Shown here in pieces: positions 1,434-59,966 of a stretch of DNA of 64,000 nt. Source of the DNA: Flavobacterium yafengii (GTDB lineage Bacteria > Bacteroidota > Bacteroidia > Flavobacteriales > Flavobacteriaceae); NCBI RefSeq assembly GCF_030010375.1, contig NZ_JASCRY010000001.1:186001-250000 (forward strand), written 5' to 3'. The stretch's first letter is position 1. Every line of letters begins with the position of its first letter. The translations under genes and the position numbers were made by a program. Under the pieces are notes generated by a model that did not search any database, was not told where the DNA came from, and saw nothing but the letters and a program-made list of their open reading frames with translations.

Positions 1434-3311
1434 ATGCATAAAACAGGTTCGTTTCCGTTCATAAATAGGAGCTTTCTAAAAAAAATAACCTTATTCCTTT
1501 TTTTTATGTCTTTAACTTTAAATGCTCAAATCGACAAAATTGAACCGCCTTTTTGGTACGCAGGAATGCAAAATCCAGAACTGCAAATTCTTTTTTATGG
1601 CAAAGACATTTCTCAATACCAAGTCACAGTTTCTAATGGCATAAAAATAACTAACGTTAAAAGAACGGAAAACTCCAACTACATTTTTGTTACCATTGAC
1701 ACCAAAAAAGTGGCTGCCTCTGATTTCGTTTTTACTTTTAAAAACAACAACAAAGAAACGTTTACACAAAAATACAGCTTGCGCCAAAGAAGAGAAAATT
1801 CAGCGCAACGCAAAAGCTTTGATTCTTCGGATATGATGTATTTATTGATGCCGGATCGCTTTGCCAATGGAAACAGAAACAACGACAGTGAAAACGCCAC
1901 CCAAGAAAAATACAATAGAGAATCACCTGGCGGAAGACACGGTGGCGATATTGAAGGCATCATAAAAAACTTAGATTATATAGCAGAACTGGGCGCAACG
2001 ACCATTTGGAGTACGCCACTTTGCGAGGATAATGACGCTAGACATTCGTATCATACCTATGGTCAATCTGATGTTTATAAAATAGATCCACGTTTCGGGA
2101 CTAATGCAGATTATGTTCGATTGGCTGCCGAAATGCATAAAAGAGACATGAAACTCGTGATGGATTATGTGACGAATCACTGGGGAATTGAACATTGGAT
2201 GATGAAAGATTTACCTACAAAAGAATGGATCAATCAATTTGACACCTACACACAAACCAATCATAAAAGAACGGTCATTCACGACACCAATGCAGCTGAA
2301 ATTGATAAAAAAGTAGCGATAGACGGTTGGTTTGTTCCATCGATGCCCGATTTAAATTTAAAGAATCCTTTGACTTTAAAATACCTGATTCAAAATGCCA
2401 TTTGGTGGATTGAATATGCTGATTTAGATGGTTTCAGAGTCGACACGTATAATTATTCAGACCCAAAAGGAATCGCAAAATGGACAAAATCCATTACGGA
2501 TGAATACCCAAATTTTAATATTGTAGGGGAAGTTTGGATGCAAAGTCAAGCGCAAATGGCGTATTGGCAAAAAGACAGTAAAATTGCTGAAATACAAAAT
2601 TACAACTCGTATTTACCTAGTGTAATGGATTTTACATTATATGAGGCAACCAGCAAAGCGTTCAGTGAAGACGAAGGAACTTGGGACAAAGGAGTGGTGA
2701 AAATGTATGATAATTTTACAAATGATTTTCTGTATCCAAACATCAATAATATGTTGATTTTTGTTGAAAATCACGACACGAATCGTTTCAATCAAACCTA
2801 CGGAAACGACATCAGAAAATACAAGATGGCAATGACTTTGATGGCTACCGTTCGTGGAATTCCTCAATTGTATTATGGAAGTGAAATAGGTATGGCCGGT
2901 GATAAAAACAAAGGCGATGCTGATATTCGTCAAGATTTCCCTGGCGGTTGGGAAGGCGATCAAAACAATGCTTTCATCAAAGAAGGAAGAACTCCGGGAC
3001 AAAGCGATTATTTTAATTTTACTTCTAAATTATTCAATTGGAGAAAAACAAAAGCGGCGGTTCATTTTGGAAAAATGACACATTACATTCCGGAGAATAA
3101 TATCTACGTTTATTTTAGATACAACAAAGATGAAACGGTGATGGTTCTAATGAACAATAGTAATGAGACCAAAACTGTCAATACACATCGTTTCAAAGAA
3201 AACATCAAAGACTTTAAAACCGGAAAAGATGTAATTTCTGAACTTACATTTGACGTTACAAACGAAATTATAATAGAACCTAAGTCCGTTTTGATTTTAG
3301 AACTTAAGTAA
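1434..3311 (+). CDS. Secreted GH13 alpha-amylase family enzyme (neopullulanase/cyclomaltodextrinase-like, SusA-like)
   Basis: 625 residues. An N-terminal signal peptide (hydrophobic stretch near residues 17-30, ending LNAQ) indicates export, probably to the periplasm. A small N-terminal beta domain of the cyclomaltodextrinase type precedes the GH13 barrel. All four GH13 motifs are visible: DYVTNH (~243), GFRVDTYNY with the nucleophile Asp (~336), GEVW with the acid Glu (~367) and ENHD (~445). A C-terminal beta domain follows. In the Bacteroides Sus system this architecture (SusA) degrades imported maltodextrins in the periplasm. It sits between a GH65 phosphorylase and a second amylase, which supports a shared maltodextrin pathway. 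The exact bond specificity is inferred, not shown. Confidence 0.9.
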   Translation: MHKTGSFPFINRSFLKKITLFLFFMSLTLNAQIDKIEPPFWYAGMQNPELQILFYGKDISQYQVTVSNGIKITNVKRTENSNYIFVTIDTKKVAASDFVFTFKNNNKETFTQKYSLRQRRENSAQRKSFDSSDMMYLLMPDRFANGNRNNDSENATQEKYNRESPGGRHGGDIEGIIKNLDYIAELGATTIWSTPLCEDNDARHSYHTYGQSDVYKIDPRFGTNADYVRLAAEMHKRDMKLVMDYVTNHWGIEHWMMKDLPTKEWINQFDTYTQTNHKRTVIHDTNAAEIDKKVAIDGWFVPSMPDLNLKNPLTLKYLIQNAIWWIEYADLDGFRVDTYNYSDPKGIAKWTKSITDEYPNFNIVGEVWMQSQAQMAYWQKDSKIAEIQNYNSYLPSVMDFTLYEATSKAFSEDEGTWDKGVVKMYDNFTNDFLYPNINNMLIFVENHDTNRFNQTYGNDIRKYKMAMTLMATVRGIPQLYYGSEIGMAGDKNKGDADIRQDFPGGWEGDQNNAFIKEGRTPGQSDYFNFTSKLFNWRKTKAAVHFGKMTHYIPENNIYVYFRYNKDETVMVLMNNSNETKTVNTHRFKENIKDFKTGKDVISELTFDVTNEIIIEPKSVLILELK

Positions 3312-3391
3312 TTTGAACCTTGTAAAGCATTTAAGCGATTTGATAATTCCTTATATGTTTCAAAAAAAAATAATCATTTAATGCTATAAAA

Positions 3392-5050
3392 ATGAAAAAA
3401 TATTCAATCCCACTTTTACTATTAACCATGACAATAATAAGTAGTTGCTCCAGTACACAAACAGTTGCTGAGAGTAACAAAACACCTTTCGTTTGGGAAG
3501 GAGCGAATGTTTATTTCTTAATGACAGACCGTTTTAATAATGGCGACACTTCAAATGATATAAACTTCAACAGAACCAAAACAACGGGAAAACTTCGTGG
3601 TTTTGAAGGTGGTGATATCAAAGGAATTTCTCAAAAAATTGACGAAGGTTATTTTGATAAATTAGGAATTAATGCCATTTGGTTTACACCAATAGTGGAG
3701 CAAATTCACGATGGTGTTGATGAAGGAACCGGTTTAAGTTATGGCTTTCATGGCTATTGGGCAAAAGACTGGACGAACTTAGATCCTAACTTTGGAACAA
3801 AAGAAGATTTGGCTGCATTAGTTCAAAAAGCACACGCACACGGAATCCGAATCATTCTTGATGGCGTAATCAATCATACCGGTCCCGTAACTCCCAAAGA
3901 TACGGTTTGGCCAAATGACTGGGTGCGAACAGGACCCAATTGCGATTACAAATCGTTTGAAAATACAACTGCGTGTACGCTGGTTTCTAATCTTCCGGAT
4001 ATAAAAACAGAAAACAATCAAGCTGTCGCTTTACCTCCTTTTTTAATCGAAAAATGGAAGAAAGAAGGACGTTACGAACAAGAAATGAAAGAACTTGATG
4101 CGTTTTTTGCGCGCACGGGATATCCAAGAGCGCCAAAATATTACATCATCAAATGGTTGACGGATTATATTACGGATTACGGAATTGACGGTTATCGTGG
4201 CGACACGGTAAAACATACCGATGAAACGGTTTGGGCTGATTTCAAGACCCAATGTGATTATGCTTTTGCAACTTGGAAGAAAAACAATCCGACAAAAGTT
4301 TTAGATAATAATCCTTTTTACACCATTGCTGAAGTTTATAATTATGGTATCAGCGGCGGACAAGATTTTGATTTTGGAGACAAAAAAATAAACTATTTTA
4401 AAAATGGTTTCAACAATATGATCAATTTTGAGTTCAAATGGGATGCACAAAAAGACTATGAATTTATATTTTCCAAATATTCTGATAAGTTAAACAATGA
4501 CTTAAAAGGATATAGTGTTTTGAACTATTTGTCTTCACACGATGACGGCGGACCATTTGATGCAAATCGTACCAAAACTATAGAAAGCGGAACAAAATTA
4601 TTACTGAGTCCTGGACTTTCTCAAGTATATTATGGTGATGAAAGCGCTCGTTCTTTAGTTATCGAAGGAACAAAAGGCGATGCAACATTACGTTCATTTA
4701 TGAATTGGGAAGCTATCAAATCAAATCCTGAAACCCAAAAAACATTGTTGCATTGGCAAAAATTAGGTCAATTCAGGAAAAACCATCCTTCGATTGGAGC
4801 AGGAATTCACAAGCAAATTTCGGCTCAACCGTATGTTTTTAGCAGAACTTTCTCTAAAGGAGATTATACAGATAAAGTAGTTGTTGGATTGGATTTGGTA
4901 ATTGGTACAAAAGAACTTGCTGTAGATTCAATTTTCGCAGACGGCACATCATTAAAAGATGCCTATTCCGGAAAAGAAGCAATTGTTTCCAATGGAAAAG
5001 TGACAATCAATACTGAATTTGATATTGTTTTATTAGAATTGAAAAAATAA
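3392..5050 (+). CDS. GH13 alpha-amylase lipoprotein
   Basis: 552 residues with a lipoprotein signal (MKKYS...TIISSC, lipid-accepting Cys near residue 19). It is therefore membrane anchored, possibly on the cell surface as in SusG. GH13 motifs are intact: DGVINH (~156), GYRGD with the nucleophile (~270), AEVY (~313) and SSHDD (~380). The gene follows the first amylase after an 80-base gap with no evident terminator, so cotranscription is likely. It would start the degradation of external starch or glycogen, with products passed to the periplasmic amylase and the phosphorylase. A strong hairpin terminator lies just downstream. Confidence 0.88.
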   Translation: MKKYSIPLLLLTMTIISSCSSTQTVAESNKTPFVWEGANVYFLMTDRFNNGDTSNDINFNRTKTTGKLRGFEGGDIKGISQKIDEGYFDKLGINAIWFTPIVEQIHDGVDEGTGLSYGFHGYWAKDWTNLDPNFGTKEDLAALVQKAHAHGIRIILDGVINHTGPVTPKDTVWPNDWVRTGPNCDYKSFENTTACTLVSNLPDIKTENNQAVALPPFLIEKWKKEGRYEQEMKELDAFFARTGYPRAPKYYIIKWLTDYITDYGIDGYRGDTVKHTDETVWADFKTQCDYAFATWKKNNPTKVLDNNPFYTIAEVYNYGISGGQDFDFGDKKINYFKNGFNNMINFEFKWDAQKDYEFIFSKYSDKLNNDLKGYSVLNYLSSHDDGGPFDANRTKTIESGTKLLLSPGLSQVYYGDESARSLVIEGTKGDATLRSFMNWEAIKSNPETQKTLLHWQKLGQFRKNHPSIGAGIHKQISAQPYVFSRTFSKGDYTDKVVVGLDLVIGTKELAVDSIFADGTSLKDAYSGKEAIVSNGKVTINTEFDIVLLELKK

Positions 5051-11158: not shown

Positions 11159-12592
11159 ATGACTGAAAATAAAATTCTTGAAAATTTTAAGCGAAGTAAT
11201 ATTTTCATTCCTCTGATTATAATAATTATATCTTGCTCTTCGTTGATTATCATCAACTACCTGACCATTAAAATCTTGTCGGCATCCAGAGCGTATGTAA
11301 ATGGAGAATCTCATTATTCTAAAGGACAAAAAGATGCAACACGCCACCTCATCACTTATTTATTTACTAATGACACCACTCAATGGAAACTATTCCACGA
11401 AGAATTGAGTGTTCCTATAGGAGATAAAACTGCACGAATTGGCTTAGTTAACAATAGCGATATTGAAATAATCAAAGATGGATTTAGAGCTGGTCGAAAT
11501 GACGAGAGAGATCTTGATGATATAATTTGGTTATTTAAACATTTTCACTCCGTTCCTTTTTTAGCAAAAGCGATCAATGAATGGGAAAAAGGAGATCAAT
11601 TAATTGACCAATTGGCATTGATTGGAAATGAAGTCCATAAAAAAATAAGTGCCAATACTTTAAGCCCAGACGAAAAAGAAAAAATTTTGCAACAGATAAA
11701 TAGCATTACCTATAAACTAACTATAAATGAGCGTAATTTCTCTGATTCACTAGGAGAAGGCACTCGCTTAATTAAAACCTATCTTCTTTTTACCAATATC
11801 TTTTTTACGTTAATAATCATTGGAAGTGTCAGTATTTATTACTCCGTAATGATTAACAAGCTCAGACGCTCGAAACAAGAAACAGAAGATAAAAACAGAA
11901 ATTTAATACTAGCCAATAAAGAACTTGATAAGTTTGTATACAGCGCTTCTCATGATCTAAGGTCGCCCATCTCTTCCTTGAAAGGATTAATAGAAATTAT
12001 AAAATTAGAAGATGATTTGGATGAAATTAGAGATTATTTAGACTTAATGCATCAAAGTCTTGATAAGCAAGATCAATTTATAAGAGAGATAATCGATTAC
12101 TCCAGAAATAAAAGAAAAAAAGTAACTGCTGCTTCTGTTAGTCTAAATGAAATTATAGATGAAATTATTTCTCAACATTTTTATATCAAAGGAACCAATG
12201 AAATTGCCATCAAAAAAGACTTATCCGTTGATGAAGTCCAAAGTGATGGTTTGCGATTAAAGATTATCTTAAATAACTTACTATCAAATGCTATCAAATA
12301 TTCTGACGAGAAAAAAGAGAAACGTTATATTTCTATTAAAACGTATACCAAAGGGGAATTTTACAAAATAGAAATTGAAGATAATGGCATTGGAATTAAT
12401 AAAGAATACCAAGTCAAAATTTTCGAAATGTTTTTTGTAACCAATAACAATAAGAAAGGTTCTGGTTTAGGTCTTTACTTAGTAAAAGAAGCTGTTGAAA
12501 ATCTTAAAGGAAACATAACCGTAGATTCAAAAATGAATATAGGAAGTAAATTTATAGTAACGATACCTATACAACATGAGTGCCAATTATAA
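11159..12592 (+). CDS. Membrane sensor histidine kinase
   Basis: 477 residues from ATG 11159 (MTENKILENF). An earlier in-frame TTG at 11132 exists but is less likely. Two transmembrane segments (about residues 15-38 and 207-232) flank a periplasmic helical sensor region of about 170 residues with no recognised fold. The HisKA motif SASHDLRSPISSLKG carries the phospho-accepting His (~265). The ATPase domain shows NLLSNAIKYS (N box), EDNGIGI (G1) and GSGLGLYLVKEA (G2). The gene overlaps by 17 bases a response-regulator gene that is broken by frameshifts, so this kinase may have lost its cognate partner. Confidence 0.9.
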   Translation: MTENKILENFKRSNIFIPLIIIIISCSSLIIINYLTIKILSASRAYVNGESHYSKGQKDATRHLITYLFTNDTTQWKLFHEELSVPIGDKTARIGLVNNSDIEIIKDGFRAGRNDERDLDDIIWLFKHFHSVPFLAKAINEWEKGDQLIDQLALIGNEVHKKISANTLSPDEKEKILQQINSITYKLTINERNFSDSLGEGTRLIKTYLLFTNIFFTLIIIGSVSIYYSVMINKLRRSKQETEDKNRNLILANKELDKFVYSASHDLRSPISSLKGLIEIIKLEDDLDEIRDYLDLMHQSLDKQDQFIREIIDYSRNKRKKVTAASVSLNEIIDEIISQHFYIKGTNEIAIKKDLSVDEVQSDGLRLKIILNNLLSNAIKYSDEKKEKRYISIKTYTKGEFYKIEIEDNGIGINKEYQVKIFEMFFVTNNNKKGSGLGLYLVKEAVENLKGNITVDSKMNIGSKFIVTIPIQHECQL

Positions 12593-14225: not shown

Positions 14226-14303
14226 TAGCCCCGATTACAACGGCATCCTTTTTCTTTTTTCTTTAAAAAGAAAAAGATAGAGTGGAAAGCGGGAAATAGC
14301 TCC
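14226..14303 (+). repeat. Structured intergenic repeat, subfamily 1, copy A
   Basis: Shares with copies at 42136 and 47292 the order: TAGCCC, GAT, GGCATCCTTTT, a variable hairpin, AAAAGATA, AGxG, AGC, GGAA, AGCTCC. Here the central stem is CTTTTTCTTTTT/AAAAAGAAAAAG. It lies between the UbiA gene and the pseudouridine synthase gene and contains no open frame. Confidence 0.85.
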
Positions 14304-21708: not shown

Positions 21709-21810
21709 GGCGTTCCCCGCTGAAAAAAGCGGGTCAGGCTGTCCATTCTCAATCTTTTTATTTTTTGAAACAAAAAAATGAAAAGGATTTCCACTCCCAT
21801 CCTTAACGCA
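21708..21810 (-). repeat. Structured intergenic repeat, subfamily 2, copy E
   Basis: Read on the minus strand it has GCGTTAAGGATGG, GTGGAAATCCTTTT, a hairpin with a T-rich 5' and A-rich 3' arm, AAAAGATTG, GGACAGCC, GACCCGC and CGCCC at the end. The same order is seen in copy D at 26061. It overlaps no gene. Confidence 0.8.
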
Positions 21811-21845
21811 AACCGCTGACTACCAAAATATTTTTCTCTAAAAAC

Positions 21846-25881: not shown

Positions 25882-26060
25882 AATATTAATTTCATTAATT
25901 CTGTTCTTTGAAATTGCCTACAACTTCTATAAAGCCGAAACAAACCCTCTTATACACACCTAATTTTGTGTAGATTAGAGAAAATATGTTTCGCTCTGTG
26001 TTTTCCAAATATAATCAAATTTTCTTACAATTTAGTAAAAAACGGCGCATCATTGTAATG

Positions 26061-26184
26061 CGCTGCGTGAGGGATGGCAGCGAAAATCCTTTATGTTTTT
26101 TCTTTAAAAACATAAAGATTGCACCGAACAGCCCGACCTGAAGTTGCGAGGAGGAACGACGAAGCAATTTGCAGGGTCACGCCC
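26061..26184 (+). repeat. Structured intergenic repeat, subfamily 2, copy D
   Basis: Contains GCGTGAGGGATGG, GCGAAAATCCTTTATG, a stem TTTATGTTTTT/AAAAACATAAA, AAAGATTG, CGAACAGCCCGACC and ends GGGTCACGCCC. The same order occurs in copy E. It lies in the gap 25882-26280, in which no gene is seen. Confidence 0.82.
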
Positions 26185-42135: not shown

Positions 42136-42217
42136 CCTAGCCCAGATGGAAACGGCATCCTTTTTCTTTTTTCCTTTAAAAAAGAAAAAGATACAGTGAA
42201 CAGCTGGAAGCAGCTCC
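42136..42217 (+). repeat. Structured intergenic repeat, subfamily 1, copy B
   Basis: Has CCTAGCCC, GATGGAAACGGCATCCTTTT, stem CTTTTTCTTTTT/AAAAAGAAAAAG, AAAGATACAGTG, ACAGCTGGAAG and CAGCTCC. It is 14 bases after the glycosyltransferase stop codon. Confidence 0.85.
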
Positions 42218-43767: not shown

Positions 43768-43844
43768 GAAACGAGAGGACTCTAACCCGTCTCGTCCCAA
43801 AAGACGAGATGACAGGCATATGTTCTATTCAACTTGAAAACTCC
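43768..43844 (-). pseudogene. tRNA-Asp-like remnant fused to GIY-YIG copy 1
   Basis: On the minus strand the end of the GIY-YIG gene runs into a segment like the D arm and 5' anticodon arm of tRNA-Asp, then CCTGTCA. The stretch TCTCGTC-loop-GACGAGA follows in place of the 3' anticodon stem and variable loop, then CGGGTT and a T-arm-like tail. This copy has GAGTCCTC changed to AGAGTCC. It cannot fold as a functional tRNA. Confidence 0.72.
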
Positions 43845-44073
43845 TTATTAATCTTTCTATCGAAGCAACATTAAGCTTTTTCAATCGCAATTCTTCTTTT
43901 AATGCTTCTGTTTTTGTTTCAAATTCTTTGAAATAAACCAAAACCCATGGACTTTTTCCAGAAGTGTATCGGCTTAAATCATTATTGTGTTCTAAAATAC
44001 GCTTACCAAGATCTTGTGTAAATCCTTTGTAAAATAATCCTTGATGATTTTTTATGATGTAAACAAAATACAT
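43825..44073 (-). CDS. GIY-YIG endonuclease family protein, copy 1
   Basis: 82 residues. N-terminal YFVYIIKNHQGLFYKGFT has the GIY-YIG core in the variant form VYI/YKG. LGKRILEHN carries the conserved Arg and His, and the Glu in KTEALKEELRLKK is the metal-binding residue. Such single-domain proteins are often called UvrC-like or mobile endonucleases. It is almost identical to copies 2 and 3. Its stop codon lies inside the adjacent tRNA-Asp-like remnant. A role in element mobility is likely but not shown. Confidence 0.88.
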   Translation of the reverse strand: MYFVYIIKNHQGLFYKGFTQDLGKRILEHNNDLSRYTSGKSPWVLVYFKEFETKTEALKEELRLKKLNVASIERLIRSFQVE

Positions 44074-44104
44074 ATCGATTGCTATTTGAATTTTACAAAA
44101 ACAA

Positions 44105-44134
44105 AAAAAGCTTTTCTATTACGAAAAGCTTTTT
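44105..44134 (-). terminator. Hairpin terminator of GIY-YIG/tRNA unit 2
   Basis: AAAAAGCTTTTC and GAAAAGCTTTTT pair around TATTAC, with an A/T-rich flank. Identical copies recur every 385 bases at 44490 and 44875. Confidence 0.8.
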
Positions 44135-44152
44135 GTTACTGGTCTTGTTTTT

Positions 44153-44229
44153 GGAACGAGAGGACTCGAACCCGTCTCGTCCTAAAAGACGAGATGACAG
44201 GCATGTGTTCTATTCAACTTGAAAACTCC
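44153..44229 (-). pseudogene. tRNA-Asp-like remnant fused to GIY-YIG copy 2
   Basis: Same structure as the remnant at 43768: CATGCCTGTCA, then TCTCGTC-TTTTAG-GACGAGA, CGGGTTCGAGTCC, TCTCGTTCC. The anticodon stem cannot pair. The 5' half carries the end of the GIY-YIG gene. Confidence 0.75.
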
Positions 44230-44458
44230 TTATTAATCTTTCTATCGAAGCAACATTAAGCTTTTTCAATCGCAATTCTTCTTTTAATGCTTCTGTTTTT
44301 GTTTCAAATTCTTTGAAATAAACCAAAACCCATGGACTTTTTCTAGAAGTGTATCGGCTTAAATCATTATTGTGTTCTAAAATACGCTTACCAAGATCTT
44401 GTGTAAATCCTTTGTAAAATAATCCTTGATGATTTTTTATGATGTAAACAAAATACAT
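44210..44458 (-). CDS. GIY-YIG endonuclease family protein, copy 2
   Basis: 82 residues, identical to copies 1 and 3 except for one Gly to Arg change in the segment SRKSPWVLVYF. The unit is exactly 385 bases from the copies on either side. That degree of identity, including the flanking hairpins and tRNA-like tail, indicates recent tandem duplication or gene conversion. The catalytic residues are unchanged. Function as described for copy 1. Confidence 0.87.
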   Translation of the reverse strand: MYFVYIIKNHQGLFYKGFTQDLGKRILEHNNDLSRYTSRKSPWVLVYFKEFETKTEALKEELRLKKLNVASIERLIRSFQVE

Positions 44459-44489
44459 ATCGATTACTATTTGAATTTTACAAAAACAA

Positions 44490-44519
44490 AAAAAGCTTTT
44501 CTATTACGAAAAGCTTTTT
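44490..44519 (-). terminator. Hairpin terminator of GIY-YIG/tRNA unit 3
   Basis: Identical to the hairpin at 44105, 385 bases away. Confidence 0.8.
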
Positions 44520-44537
44520 GTTACTGGTCTTGTTTTT

Positions 44538-44614
44538 GGAACGAGAGGACTCGAACCCGTCTCGTCCTAAAAGACGAGATGACAGGCATGTGTTCTATTC
44601 GACTTGAAAACTCC
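44538..44614 (-). pseudogene. tRNA-Asp-like remnant fused to GIY-YIG copy 3
   Basis: Same as the remnant at 44153 with one base difference near the GIY-YIG end (ATTCGACTTG where the others have ATTCAACTTG). The anticodon-stem replacement is intact. Confidence 0.75.
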
Positions 44615-44843
44615 TTATTAATCTTTCTATCGAAGCAACATTAAGCTTTTTCAATCGCAATTCTTCTTTTAATGCTTCTGTTTTTGTTTCAAATTCTTTG
44701 AAATACACCAAAACCCATGGACTTTTTCCAGAAGTGTATCGGCTTAAATCATTATTGTGTTCTAAAATACGCTTACCAAGATCTTGTGTAAATCCTTTGT
44801 AAAATAATCCTTGATGATTTTTTATGATGTAAACAAAATACAT
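44595..44843 (-). CDS. GIY-YIG endonuclease family protein, copy 3
   Basis: 82 residues, protein identical to copy 1. This is the first GIY-YIG gene encountered by a transcript coming from the tRNA-Asp promoter at 45,6 kb, directly after the intact tRNA-Asp at 44910-44986. A terminator-like hairpin lies between it and that tRNA. Function and motifs as in copy 1. Confidence 0.88.
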   Translation of the reverse strand: MYFVYIIKNHQGLFYKGFTQDLGKRILEHNNDLSRYTSGKSPWVLVYFKEFETKTEALKEELRLKKLNVASIERLIRSFQVE

Positions 44844-44909: not shown

Positions 44910-44986
44910 TGGCGGTCTGGACGGGACTCGAACCCGCGACCCCATGCGTGACAGGCATGTATTCTAACCAACTGAACTACCAAACC
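44910..44986 (-). tRNA. tRNA-Asp (anticodon GTC), intact, with encoded CCA
   Basis: Minus strand: acceptor GGTTTGG/CCAGACC with one G-T pair, discriminator G and CCA encoded. The D arm is GTTC/GAAT, the anticodon arm CATGC-CTGTCAC-GCATG, the variable loop GGGTC and the T arm GCGGG-TTCGAGT-CCCGT. G34-T35-C36 reads Asp codons, and G73 is the known Asp identity base. It is 113 bases from the first tRNA-like copy. Confidence 0.95.
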
Positions 44987-45018
44987 AGTATTTTAATCTA
45001 TAACATTCTAATCCTTAA

Positions 45019-45099
45019 ACCCAGTTCTGGAATCGAACCCGTCTCGTCCCAAAAGACGAGATGACAGGCATGTATTCTAACCAACTGAACTACCAAACC
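45019..45099 (-). pseudogene. tRNA-Asp-like copy 1 with hairpin replacement
   Basis: The 5' half is identical to the intact tRNA-Asp up to the anticodon (GGTTTGG to CCTGTCA). Positions corresponding to 38-49 are replaced by TCTCGTC-TTTTGG-GACGAGA, after which CGGGTTCGATTCC continues with a shortened, mispaired T and acceptor arm. It cannot form an anticodon stem. Confidence 0.82.
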
Positions 45100-45132
45100 A
45101 GTATTTTAATCTATAACATTCTAATCCTTAAA

Positions 45133-45212
45133 CCCAGTTCTGGAATCGAACCCGTCTCGTCCCAAAAGACGAGATGACAGGCATGTATTCTAACCAACTG
45201 AACTACCAAACC
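45133..45212 (-). pseudogene. tRNA-Asp-like copy 2 with hairpin replacement
   Basis: Same as the copy at 45019, exactly 113 bases upstream in the array. Sequence differences are very few, so duplication is recent. Confidence 0.82.
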
Positions 45213-45243
45213 AGCATTTTAATCTATAACATTCTAATCCTTA

Positions 45244-45325
45244 AATCCAAGTCTTGAATCGAACCCGTCTCGTCCTAAAAGACGAGATGACAGGCATGTA
45301 TTCTAACCAACTGAACTACCAAACC
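45244..45325 (-). pseudogene. tRNA-Asp-like copy 3 with hairpin replacement
   Basis: Same design, with loop CTAAAA instead of CCAAAA on the plus strand and a slightly different 3' tail (AAGTCTTG). The 5' end is 113 bases from that of copy 2. Confidence 0.8.
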
Positions 45326-45345
45326 AGCTTTCTTTTTAAATCAAA

Positions 45346-45375
45346 AAAGCTATCCACAAAAGTGGAAAGCTTTTC
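45346..45375 (-). terminator. Hairpin between tRNA-Asp-like copy 3 and the first tRNA-Asp
   Basis: AAAAGCT and AGCTTTT with an inner CCAC/GTGG form a hairpin in the 100-base spacer before the upstream tRNA. Confidence 0.55.
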
Positions 45376-45455
45376 ATTGGTCTAACTACTAAACCCGCTA
45401 CGAGTTACAAATTCGTAGCAAACAACACAACTAACTTTAGATACTTTATAGGGGC

Positions 45456-45485
45456 AAAAAAGCCTTTCTGTTACGAAAGGCTTTC
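45456..45485 (-). terminator. Hairpin terminator after the first tRNA-Asp
   Basis: AAAGCCTTTC and GAAAGGCTTT pair around TGTTAC, with outer GGGG/CCCC. It is nearly the same as the hairpin at 43718, at the opposite end of the array. Confidence 0.75.
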
Positions 45486-45495
45486 CCCAATATTG

Positions 45496-45569
45496 CGGTC
45501 TGGACGGGACTCGAACCCGCGACCCCATGCGTGACAGGCATGTATTCTAACCAACTGAACTACCAAACC
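45496..45569 (-). tRNA. tRNA-Asp (anticodon GTC), intact
   Basis: Minus strand, identical in the mature part to the tRNA at 44910. Acceptor, D, anticodon (CATGC-CTGTCAC-GCATG) and T arms pair fully, and the discriminator is G. CCA is not encoded here (GCAATA follows). It is the first gene of the array after the promoter. Confidence 0.96.
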
Positions 45570-47206: not shown

Positions 47207-47291
47207 CGCCATTCATAAATTAGTTTTGACTATTAATATATCGTCAATTCTTATCACTCGATTTCAATGTATTTAAGATTACAATAATCAA

Positions 47292-47370
47292 GAGCTACTT
47301 CCTGCTGTACGCTGTATCTTTTCCGGCTTAAAGAAAGCCAGAAAAGGATGCCACTCCCATCAGGGCTAGG
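47292..47370 (-). repeat. Structured intergenic repeat, subfamily 1, copy C
   Basis: On the minus strand: CCTAGCCCTGATGGGAGTGG, CATCCTTTT, stem TCTGGCTT/AAGCCGGA, AAAAGATACAGCG, ACAGCAGGAAG, AGCTC. The stem differs in sequence from copies A and B yet is still paired. It lies in the gap 47125-47477, in which no gene is seen. Confidence 0.85.
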
Positions 47371-59917: not shown

Positions 59918-59966
59918 CACCCTTAATTAATCGAGGTCGAGTACCTCAAAATTTAATCACAAGATT

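Follow-up and report, generated by a model that had tools for sequence, protein, structure and literature searches.

The window, i.e. the whole stretch of 64,000 nucleotides of the Flavobacterium yafengii contig that was analysed, contains five copies of a structured intergenic element. The neighbours of these copies include genes for UbiA, a pseudouridine synthase, a glycosyltransferase, a beta-barrel protein, a thioredoxin, a saccharopine dehydrogenase and an M20 peptidase. All five copies matched the Rfam family RF01705 (Flavo-1), for which the curated score cut-off is 42 bits, with scores of 50.9 to 73.6 bits and E-values of 2.6e-14 to 4.6e-08, and copies A, B and C matched at full length. 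Copies A to C were delimited from TAGCCC to AGCTC(C/T).

14226..14303, + strand: Flavo-1 copy A, type 1 (RF01705, 71.9 bits, and sequence)
14249..14275, + strand: hypervariable apical stem-loop of copy A, TTTTTC.../...GAAAAA (sequence)
21728..21812, - strand: Flavo-1 type 2 copy (RF01705, 50.9 bits, and sequence)
26057..26142, + strand: Flavo-1 type 2 copy (RF01705, 55.7 bits)
42138..42217, + strand: Flavo-1 copy B, type 1 (RF01705, 73.6 bits, and sequence)
47291..47368, - strand: Flavo-1 copy C, type 1 (RF01705, 70.8 bits, and sequence)

Copy A is laid out as TAGCCC-CGAT, a bulged C at 14248, GAT and finally AGC-GGG-AAATAGCTCC; its orthologues in other species have different apical stems in which self-complementarity is kept. 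The glycosyltransferase gene, identified from its gene end and the Pfam domain of the neighbour, ends about 15 bases before copy B, and a terminator-like hairpin of the upstream gene stands between that gene and copy C. In the type 2 copy at 26057..26142 an extra outer helix, GCGTGA/TCACGC, encloses the core, and in the one at 21728..21812, which is immediately preceded by a terminator-like hairpin, the outer helix is GCGTTA with a 3' partner recognised by eye.

The first-pass annotation of this DNA had described three of these copies, starting at 14226, 42136 and 47292. All three exist, the first start being exact and the other two lying within a few bases of those found here. The shared flanks that it reported were recovered in the 5' part (TAGCCC...ATCC) and in a shared 3' part, but copy C ends in AGCTCT and not in AGCTCC; the conserved unpaired C was confirmed in the sequence of the copies. 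The other two of the "five sites" that it mentioned are probably the type 2 copies at 26057-26142 and 21728-21812. Its statement that no named family was known has to be withdrawn, because the copies belong to Flavo-1, a family already named in Rfam and listed in PMC2864571. At the level of single copies, the window elements are like the Flavo-1 RNA of RF01705 in both sequence and structure, with no difference. In the portion of that paper available, Weinberg et al. 2010 listed Flavo-1 as "probably" RNA (Table 1) and as not cis-regulatory (PMC2864571), Rfam gives its type as sRNA, and the text available from another study ranks it among the most abundant sRNA families and gives no function (PMC9029176). 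A proposal that Flavo-1 is a DNA element was absent from the available portions of PMC2864571, PMC9723704 and PMC9029176, within a literature scope that mostly excluded subscription journals, preprints and supplements. What is added here to Flavo-1 is its copy number, its outer forms, its DNA-like behaviour and the larger units in which it spreads. The outer forms comprise type 1, type 2 with its additional helix, and 3' ends that are either long or short.

Two other features of the window were recorded. An S16-Flavobacteria ribosomal protein leader (RF03138, 39.4 bits) lies at 59926-59957, and the region at 43825-44843 and 44910-45569 has three 82-codon ORFs with a regular spacing of 385 bases beside two tRNA-Asp genes with the same anticodon, an arrangement that suggests a tandem duplication.

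Anatomy, covariation and the folding strand

The anatomy of the element was read from 95 of the 103 copies in the F. yafengii genome, taken with their flanks, the 8 weakest being left out. A type 1 copy has the order TAGCCC-N-GAT-N-GnA-(2 bases)-GGC-ATC-C-[apical stem]-GAT-AnA-(2 bases)-GnA-N'-AGC-N'-GG-AAATAGCTCC, and in a second subtype AATC/GATT replaces ATC/GAT. The outer helix of type 2 copies is GCGTGA/TCACGC or GCGTTA/TAACGC, frequently accompanied by another hairpin, which by eye makes a three-way junction. On the annotated strand, Flavo-1 can form a core helix with purine-rich internal loops, topped by an apical self-complementary arm of free sequence that varies widely between copies and retains its self-complementarity. 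The foot of the hairpin, inspected by eye in the 95 copies, was TAGCCC or GCGTGAGGG-like.

A long 3' form was also seen, in which GGGA, about 27 nt of variable A-rich sequence and then GCTCCTAAA replace GGGAAATAGCTCCTAAA. It occurs at L001, L015, L028, L031, L047, L052, L053, L062, L065, L075, L076, L078, L082, L085-L087 and L090 of the F. yafengii genome, and the flank before TAGCC resembles the ~27-nt insert, by eye only. Small inserts recur at fixed points within Flavo-1: the core loops can hold TTACTTCAC...GTGAACTTCGTTTG, and ATCGAAGATTCAGCGTAGCT or ACGAGCAAAGC..GAAGT can precede AAATAGCTCC. They were found at the orthologous loci L167, L175, L178, L180, L181, L191, L196, L198 and L201 and at L087 of F. 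yafengii, and look like other short mobile repeats nested there.

For the covariation analysis, the 3' arms were placed by complementarity of the apical stem only, without the core pairs under test. The set combined 63 of the 95 F. yafengii copies with 99 of 120 copies from named genomes, which gave 143 distinct copies after merging; the 120 outside copies had been found by a pattern in which most of the 5' core is fixed, and the ranking covered column pairs at least four apart. The five predicted core pairs took ranks 1-5 of the tested column pairs by APC-corrected G. For example, one of them was T-A in 51 copies, C-G in 48, G-C in 26, A-T in 15, T-G in 2 and T-T in 1. Over all five, G-U accounted for 10 of 715 pairs (1.4%), A-C or C-A for 7 and other mismatches for 19, and the tRNA yardstick, a small sample of 12 distinct tRNAs, had G-U in 25 of 258 pairs (9.7%). 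An earlier parse of eight pairs in 69 of the 95 F. yafengii copies had given a matching result, with 520 Watson-Crick, 5 G-U, 2 A-C and 25 other pairs, and since it chose the 3' arms partly by pairing, the 143-copy count is the fairer one. A further run took 80 of the 120 outside copies, of which 67 could be parsed. A first MAFFT alignment, which offset the two subtypes by one base, was excluded from the counts. The covariation in Flavo-1 is genuine and almost strictly Watson-Crick, and together with the Rfam E-values of the window copies it places the element far above what chance would give.

These results support, in a larger alignment, the earlier description of a structured intergenic repeat with compensatory changes, which were also seen at one orthologous site across species. 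The covarying stem on which that description rested does contain a real change; the stems of A and B are nearly identical, so that the three copies hold only one stem change among them, and copy C has one T-G pair in the stem and another in the core. The stronger covarying positions lie in the conserved core, which had been overlooked: the position following TAGCCC forms a C-G pair in copy A, A-T in copy B and T-A in copy C, and the one following GAT forms T-A in copy A and G-C in the other two. Nor can the copies be counted as unrelated loci that provide independent evidence, because they are homologous and belong to a single repeat family. Covariation demonstrates the folding of one strand but does not identify what folds as RNA, and matched arms can also arise when copies swap whole modules.

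Which strand folds was read from 160 distinct apical stems, counted without the five pairs used as an anchor. They comprised 859 Watson-Crick, 22 G-U (2.5%, compared with 9.7% in the small tRNA sample), 1 A-C and 13 other pairs, and the excess of G-U over A-C (p = 5.7e-6) identifies the annotated strand as the folding strand.

Abundance and genomic surroundings

The F. yafengii genome (3.92 Mb) carries at least 103 RF01705 matches, 93 of them over the cut-off, a lower bound that rests on the scoring of 150 of 1185 candidates. In the genus, 95 of 101 genomes had a match; copy numbers there are also lower bounds, since in 44 of the 101 genomes the count stood at the limit of 41 scored candidates, and fuller scoring of two complete genomes gave 59 and 108 Flavo-1 matches. 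Across the class, a match was found in 107 of 296 genomes (72 over the cut-off), and in the control genomes in 0 of 14. The named genomes in which an exact pattern was matched include members of Flavobacterium, Chryseobacterium, Polaribacter, Halpernia, Epilithonimonas, Kaistella, Flavivirga and an uncultured Algibacter, and the exact type-1 pattern had 0 matches in IMG/VR.

According to a simple ORF caller, 94 of the 95 F. yafengii copies are intergenic. Of these, 42 lie in tandem antisense, 23 in tandem sense, 22 divergently and 7 convergently, with a significant excess of antisense over sense among the tandem copies (p = 0.025). Ten neighbour proteins were tested, of which seven had unrelated Pfam domains and three no Pfam match. 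A riboswitch or other cis-regulatory RNA, expected in sense orientation upstream of a consistent gene set, was set aside, as the tandem copies are mostly antisense (42 vs 23) and their neighbours unrelated by Pfam. Orientation did not follow the replichores either, there being no significant arc in G087, G009 or contig C1 of F. yafengii (permutation p 0.07, 0.62 and 0.11). At one locus (L377 4640-4794, - strand), a match to Acido-Lenti-1 RNA (RF01687, 39.7 bits, cut-off 37), another Rfam "sRNA", adjoins a Flavo-1 copy.

Terminator-like hairpins stood between gene end and element at 19 of 54 facing gene ends, compared with 6 of 90 control sides. Promoters were searched with the motif T(T/A)G...TAnnTTTG, which we take to be of Bacteroidota type. 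In equal 96-base windows on the upstream side, a full match read into the element in 2 of 95 copies and away from it in 9 of 95; on the other side the numbers were 2 in and 5 away, and a 166-base window upstream gave 3 of 95 reading in. TTTTT occurred within 25 nt after the element in 12 of 95 copies. Judged by these consensus matches in the 95 copies, the element does not generally have a promoter and terminator of its own, the mark of an independent sRNA gene.

It is rather unlikely, by our estimate, that Flavo-1 is an RNA module of UTRs or read-through transcripts, in which the annotated strand would be the RNA and would be bound by an RNA-binding protein or regulate stability. Another member of the Bacteroidota reportedly has a paralogous sRNA family, FopS, with the protein RbpB, which we counted in favour of such a module, along with the folding of the annotated strand (22 G-U against 1 A-C in the apical stems) and the retention of the core at site A described below. 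The tandem copies in antisense outnumber those in sense, promoters reading in are few (2/95), the elements often lie beyond terminator-like hairpins, G-U pairs are rare in the core and the orientation flips at one orthologous site, all of which argue against it. The literature points both ways: besides the Rfam type sRNA and the "probably" RNA of Table 1 in PMC2864571, several 5' transcribed regions of F. psychrophilum coincide with Flavo-1 hits, while the same source, in the part available, describes the hits as sense or antisense indistinctly, with no consistent strand, and many of them as outside transcribed regions (PMC9723704). What keeps an RNA module under consideration is chiefly that the G-U strand bias suits RNA and single-stranded DNA alike.

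Retention at orthologous sites

The sites of copies A and B were each searched in 249 genomes, and the best 29 relatives per site were inspected. At site A, which lies before the pseudouridine synthase gene, the element was recognisable by eye in 24 of the 29 relatives; it was degenerate in L183, L188 and L192, and none was seen in L190 and L197. Average identity to the window copy was 0.87 in the two core parts, 0.55 in the upstream flank, 0.60 in the downstream flank and 0.68 in the apical part, against 0.49 for a shuffled flank, values that cover the 13 of 29 relatives recovered by a strict pattern, which favours conserved copies. Core pairs have also changed singly at this site, L195 showing a T-G intermediate, and in L187 and L199 the element has the opposite orientation.

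At site B, the element was found by eye in 14 of 29 relatives, and 10 had another context. Four more (L151, L153, L155 and L165) share the downstream context but are without the element, their junctions aligning too poorly to define the element ends, and L158 holds a remnant from which, by eye, the hairpin was deleted between short repeats. In the 8 of 29 relatives recovered by the pattern, identity was 0.87 and 0.77 in the core parts and 0.79 in the upstream flank, so that there is no contrast between core and flank at this site. Site C had the element in 3 of 3 aligned relatives (G204, G200 and G191); the apical arm of G200 differs from that of the window copy and is of the same type as L074, L075 and L088 of F. 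yafengii. Similarly, the type 2 copy at 26057..26142 was found in 3 of 3 aligned relatives (G150, G006 and G204) and that at 21728..21812 in 4 of 4 (G170, G150, G006 and G183). In the syntenic stretches compared for empty sites, copies were kept, not gained, and a clean filled/empty pair with target-site letters was not found for the Flavobacterium copies. Pattern matches in a conserved 143-base block (G026b and G009) are probably false.

We consider it distinctly improbable that Flavo-1 is a decaying selfish repeat without function, whose arms match only through template switching and gene conversion among copies. The whole-module arm swap at an orthologous site (G200), the almost perfect matching of the arms and the absence of copy B in four relatives would agree with such decay. 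Site A speaks against it, since its core is 0.87 identical with a flank near the shuffled baseline, and single core pairs change alone there, with the T-G intermediate of L195.

Spreading units, a proposed DNA element and candidate enzymes

Elsewhere in the class, Flavo-1 is embedded in larger units. G309 has a sharp-ended unit of 136 nt at two unrelated places (C49b and C34); C49a is truncated by the contig end and shares the 23-base left flank of C34, so it may be the same place. Near-identical cores occur at unrelated loci in G309 and G480. In family f33, Flavo-1 is the 3' module of a non-coding unit of about 308 nt, which has sharp ends formed by TGTCNTATAATG at the 5' side and CTTTGCCTTAATA at the 3' side and was located as follows:

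L372, ~3240-3547: ~308-nt unit
L373, ~3327-3634: ~308-nt unit
L374, ~2874-3180 and 12283-12589: ~308-nt unit, two copies
L375, - strand: ~308-nt unit

The unit is present in 7 of 41 genomes. Two direct copies lie 9.4 kb apart in G280 and 23 kb apart in G402, and the copy pairs are 92% and 94% identical, respectively. Its sites are mostly unrelated, but G501 and G542 have a common locus; 148 bases upstream are common to G402a and G518, 439 bases upstream are common to G402b and G280b, and G562 matches G501 and G542 over short stretches downstream. Some copies lie near genes that are presumably restriction-modification-like and resolvase-like. The 309-base unit had no match in PLSDB. Since these larger units stand with sharp ends at unrelated loci, Flavo-1 spreads in some lineages. 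MITEs are non-autonomous repeats that depend for their movement on the transposase of a related element, and the units in G309 and family f33 are like them in being short, non-coding, sharp-ended and placed at unrelated sites; unlike MITEs, they had no terminal inverted repeats or target duplication recognisable by eye.

Flavo-1 is a family of homologous, multi-copy, intergenic elements that fold on one strand with strict pairing, spread within larger units and are mostly kept at orthologous sites. The likeliest explanation, which we put at about even odds, is that it is a structured DNA repeat of the non-autonomous kind and not an RNA gene. In a further-reaching version, with a rough probability of 0.45, Flavo-1 would, as folded single-stranded DNA, be acted on by a putative single-strand recombinase or chromosome-binding protein, and some of the ~100 copies in each genome would be retained at fixed positions because they serve the host. 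In either case, the annotated strand would fold when exposed as single-stranded DNA, and the folded strand would be recognised by a putative protein, either a single-strand recombinase/transposase or a chromosome-binding protein. Spreading may proceed in bursts through a putative enzyme, followed by long retention in place, during which apical arms may be exchanged between copies.

Several lines of evidence favour a DNA repeat. Its matches number at least 103 in 3.92 Mb and are intergenic, in all orientations and beside unrelated neighbours; few promoters read in, and terminator-like hairpins stand between gene end and element. G-U is rare in the core (1.4%, vs 9.7% in tRNA), the spreading units have sharp ends, the core of site A was kept while its flank lost similarity, and the orientation flips in L187 and L199. 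The F. psychrophilum hits without a consistent strand, as described in the available part of PMC9723704, agree with this. On the other side, neither a mobilising enzyme nor a clean filled/empty pair was found for Flavobacterium copies, the apical excess of G-U over A-C fits folded RNA too, the corresponding core values are close (10 and 7), and the G-U yardstick consists of only 12 tRNAs. Retention at orthologous sites also means that copies are maintained, or made uniform through conversion, neither of which would be required of a repeat that is purely selfish. Site B is without core/flank contrast and four relatives are without the element there, a replichore orientation, which a lagging-strand transposon might show, was not seen, and the IMG/VR pattern scan (0 matches) and PLSDB (no match) gave nothing. 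If Flavo-1 is DNA, a common annotation label in Bacteroidota misleads, and this phylum has a DNA enzyme or chromosome protein that recognises hairpins and awaits discovery; an RNA would require some other account of the strict pairing and of the scarcity of promoters. In both cases the question can be tested with the strand, the boundaries and the spreading units described here.

The candidate enzyme that was checked is RAYT, the REP-associated Y1 HUH transposase. Like REP/BIME repeats, as described in the available parts of PMC3733652 and PMC6006769, Flavo-1 is multi-copy, intergenic, near gene ends, hairpin-forming and present in either orientation. Unlike them, it is longer, has conserved internal loops and is not enriched at RAYT genes. 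Inspection of the 95 copies by eye showed no obvious GTAG (or GTRG) tag at the hairpin foot. We regard it as very improbable that Flavo-1 is the REP-type partner repeat of Bacteroidota RAYT transposases and is moved by them, even though multi-copy intergenic palindromes are typical of REP and the sole Y1 (HUH) transposase gene found in the F. yafengii genome, which has RAYT-like features and its own flanking repeat, has a Flavo-1 copy of 41.8 bits, slightly below the cut-off, at a distance of 385 bases from its 3' end. In a scan of 80 Y1_Tnp loci (274 kb; 20 of 30 loci from each of two sets plus 40 weak-type places), Flavo-1 was over the cut-off in 7 loci (5, 1, 0 and 1 per 20) against 7.2 expected from the density in the F. 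yafengii genome. The first 20 weak-type loci had 5 copies in 90 kb where 2.4 were expected, a difference in the direction of a RAYT link that is not significant (Poisson p 0.09). Copies of a RAYT-associated REP would flank the RAYT gene, and only these 7 of 80 loci contained a Flavo-1 copy anywhere.

Furthermore, 18 RAYT-like ORFs from 15 of 20 loci had other repeats at their ends, e.g. CCCGATAGCGCGGATTTGCAATCCGTGCCC, and the F. yafengii gene is flanked by CGAACCACACGAAAGGATTCGTGCGGTAG. Genomes with at least 33 Flavo-1 matches can be without any Y1_Tnp match (e.g. G003, G026, G027, G045 and G046). A Bacteroidetes subclass of RAYT has been reported to have atypical structures alongside (PMC6006769, in the part available), and those beside RAYT genes in the loci read here are not Flavo-1. 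A RAYT linkage was thus rejected, with no overall enrichment in the 80 Y1_Tnp loci and other repeats at the RAYT flanks, and a mobilising enzyme for Flavo-1 was not found among these loci. Integron attC sites, which would have AAC/GTT core sites and go with an integron integrase, were likewise set aside; by eye, the type-1 copies show no such core sites. The RAYT-like gene of F. yafengii lies at L031 1243-1773 (- strand), with repeats of family CGAACCACACGAAAGGATTCGTGCGGTAG at about 892, 1150, 1225 and 1878, and a related copy of this repeat was seen in the overlapping contig stretches L013 and L059.
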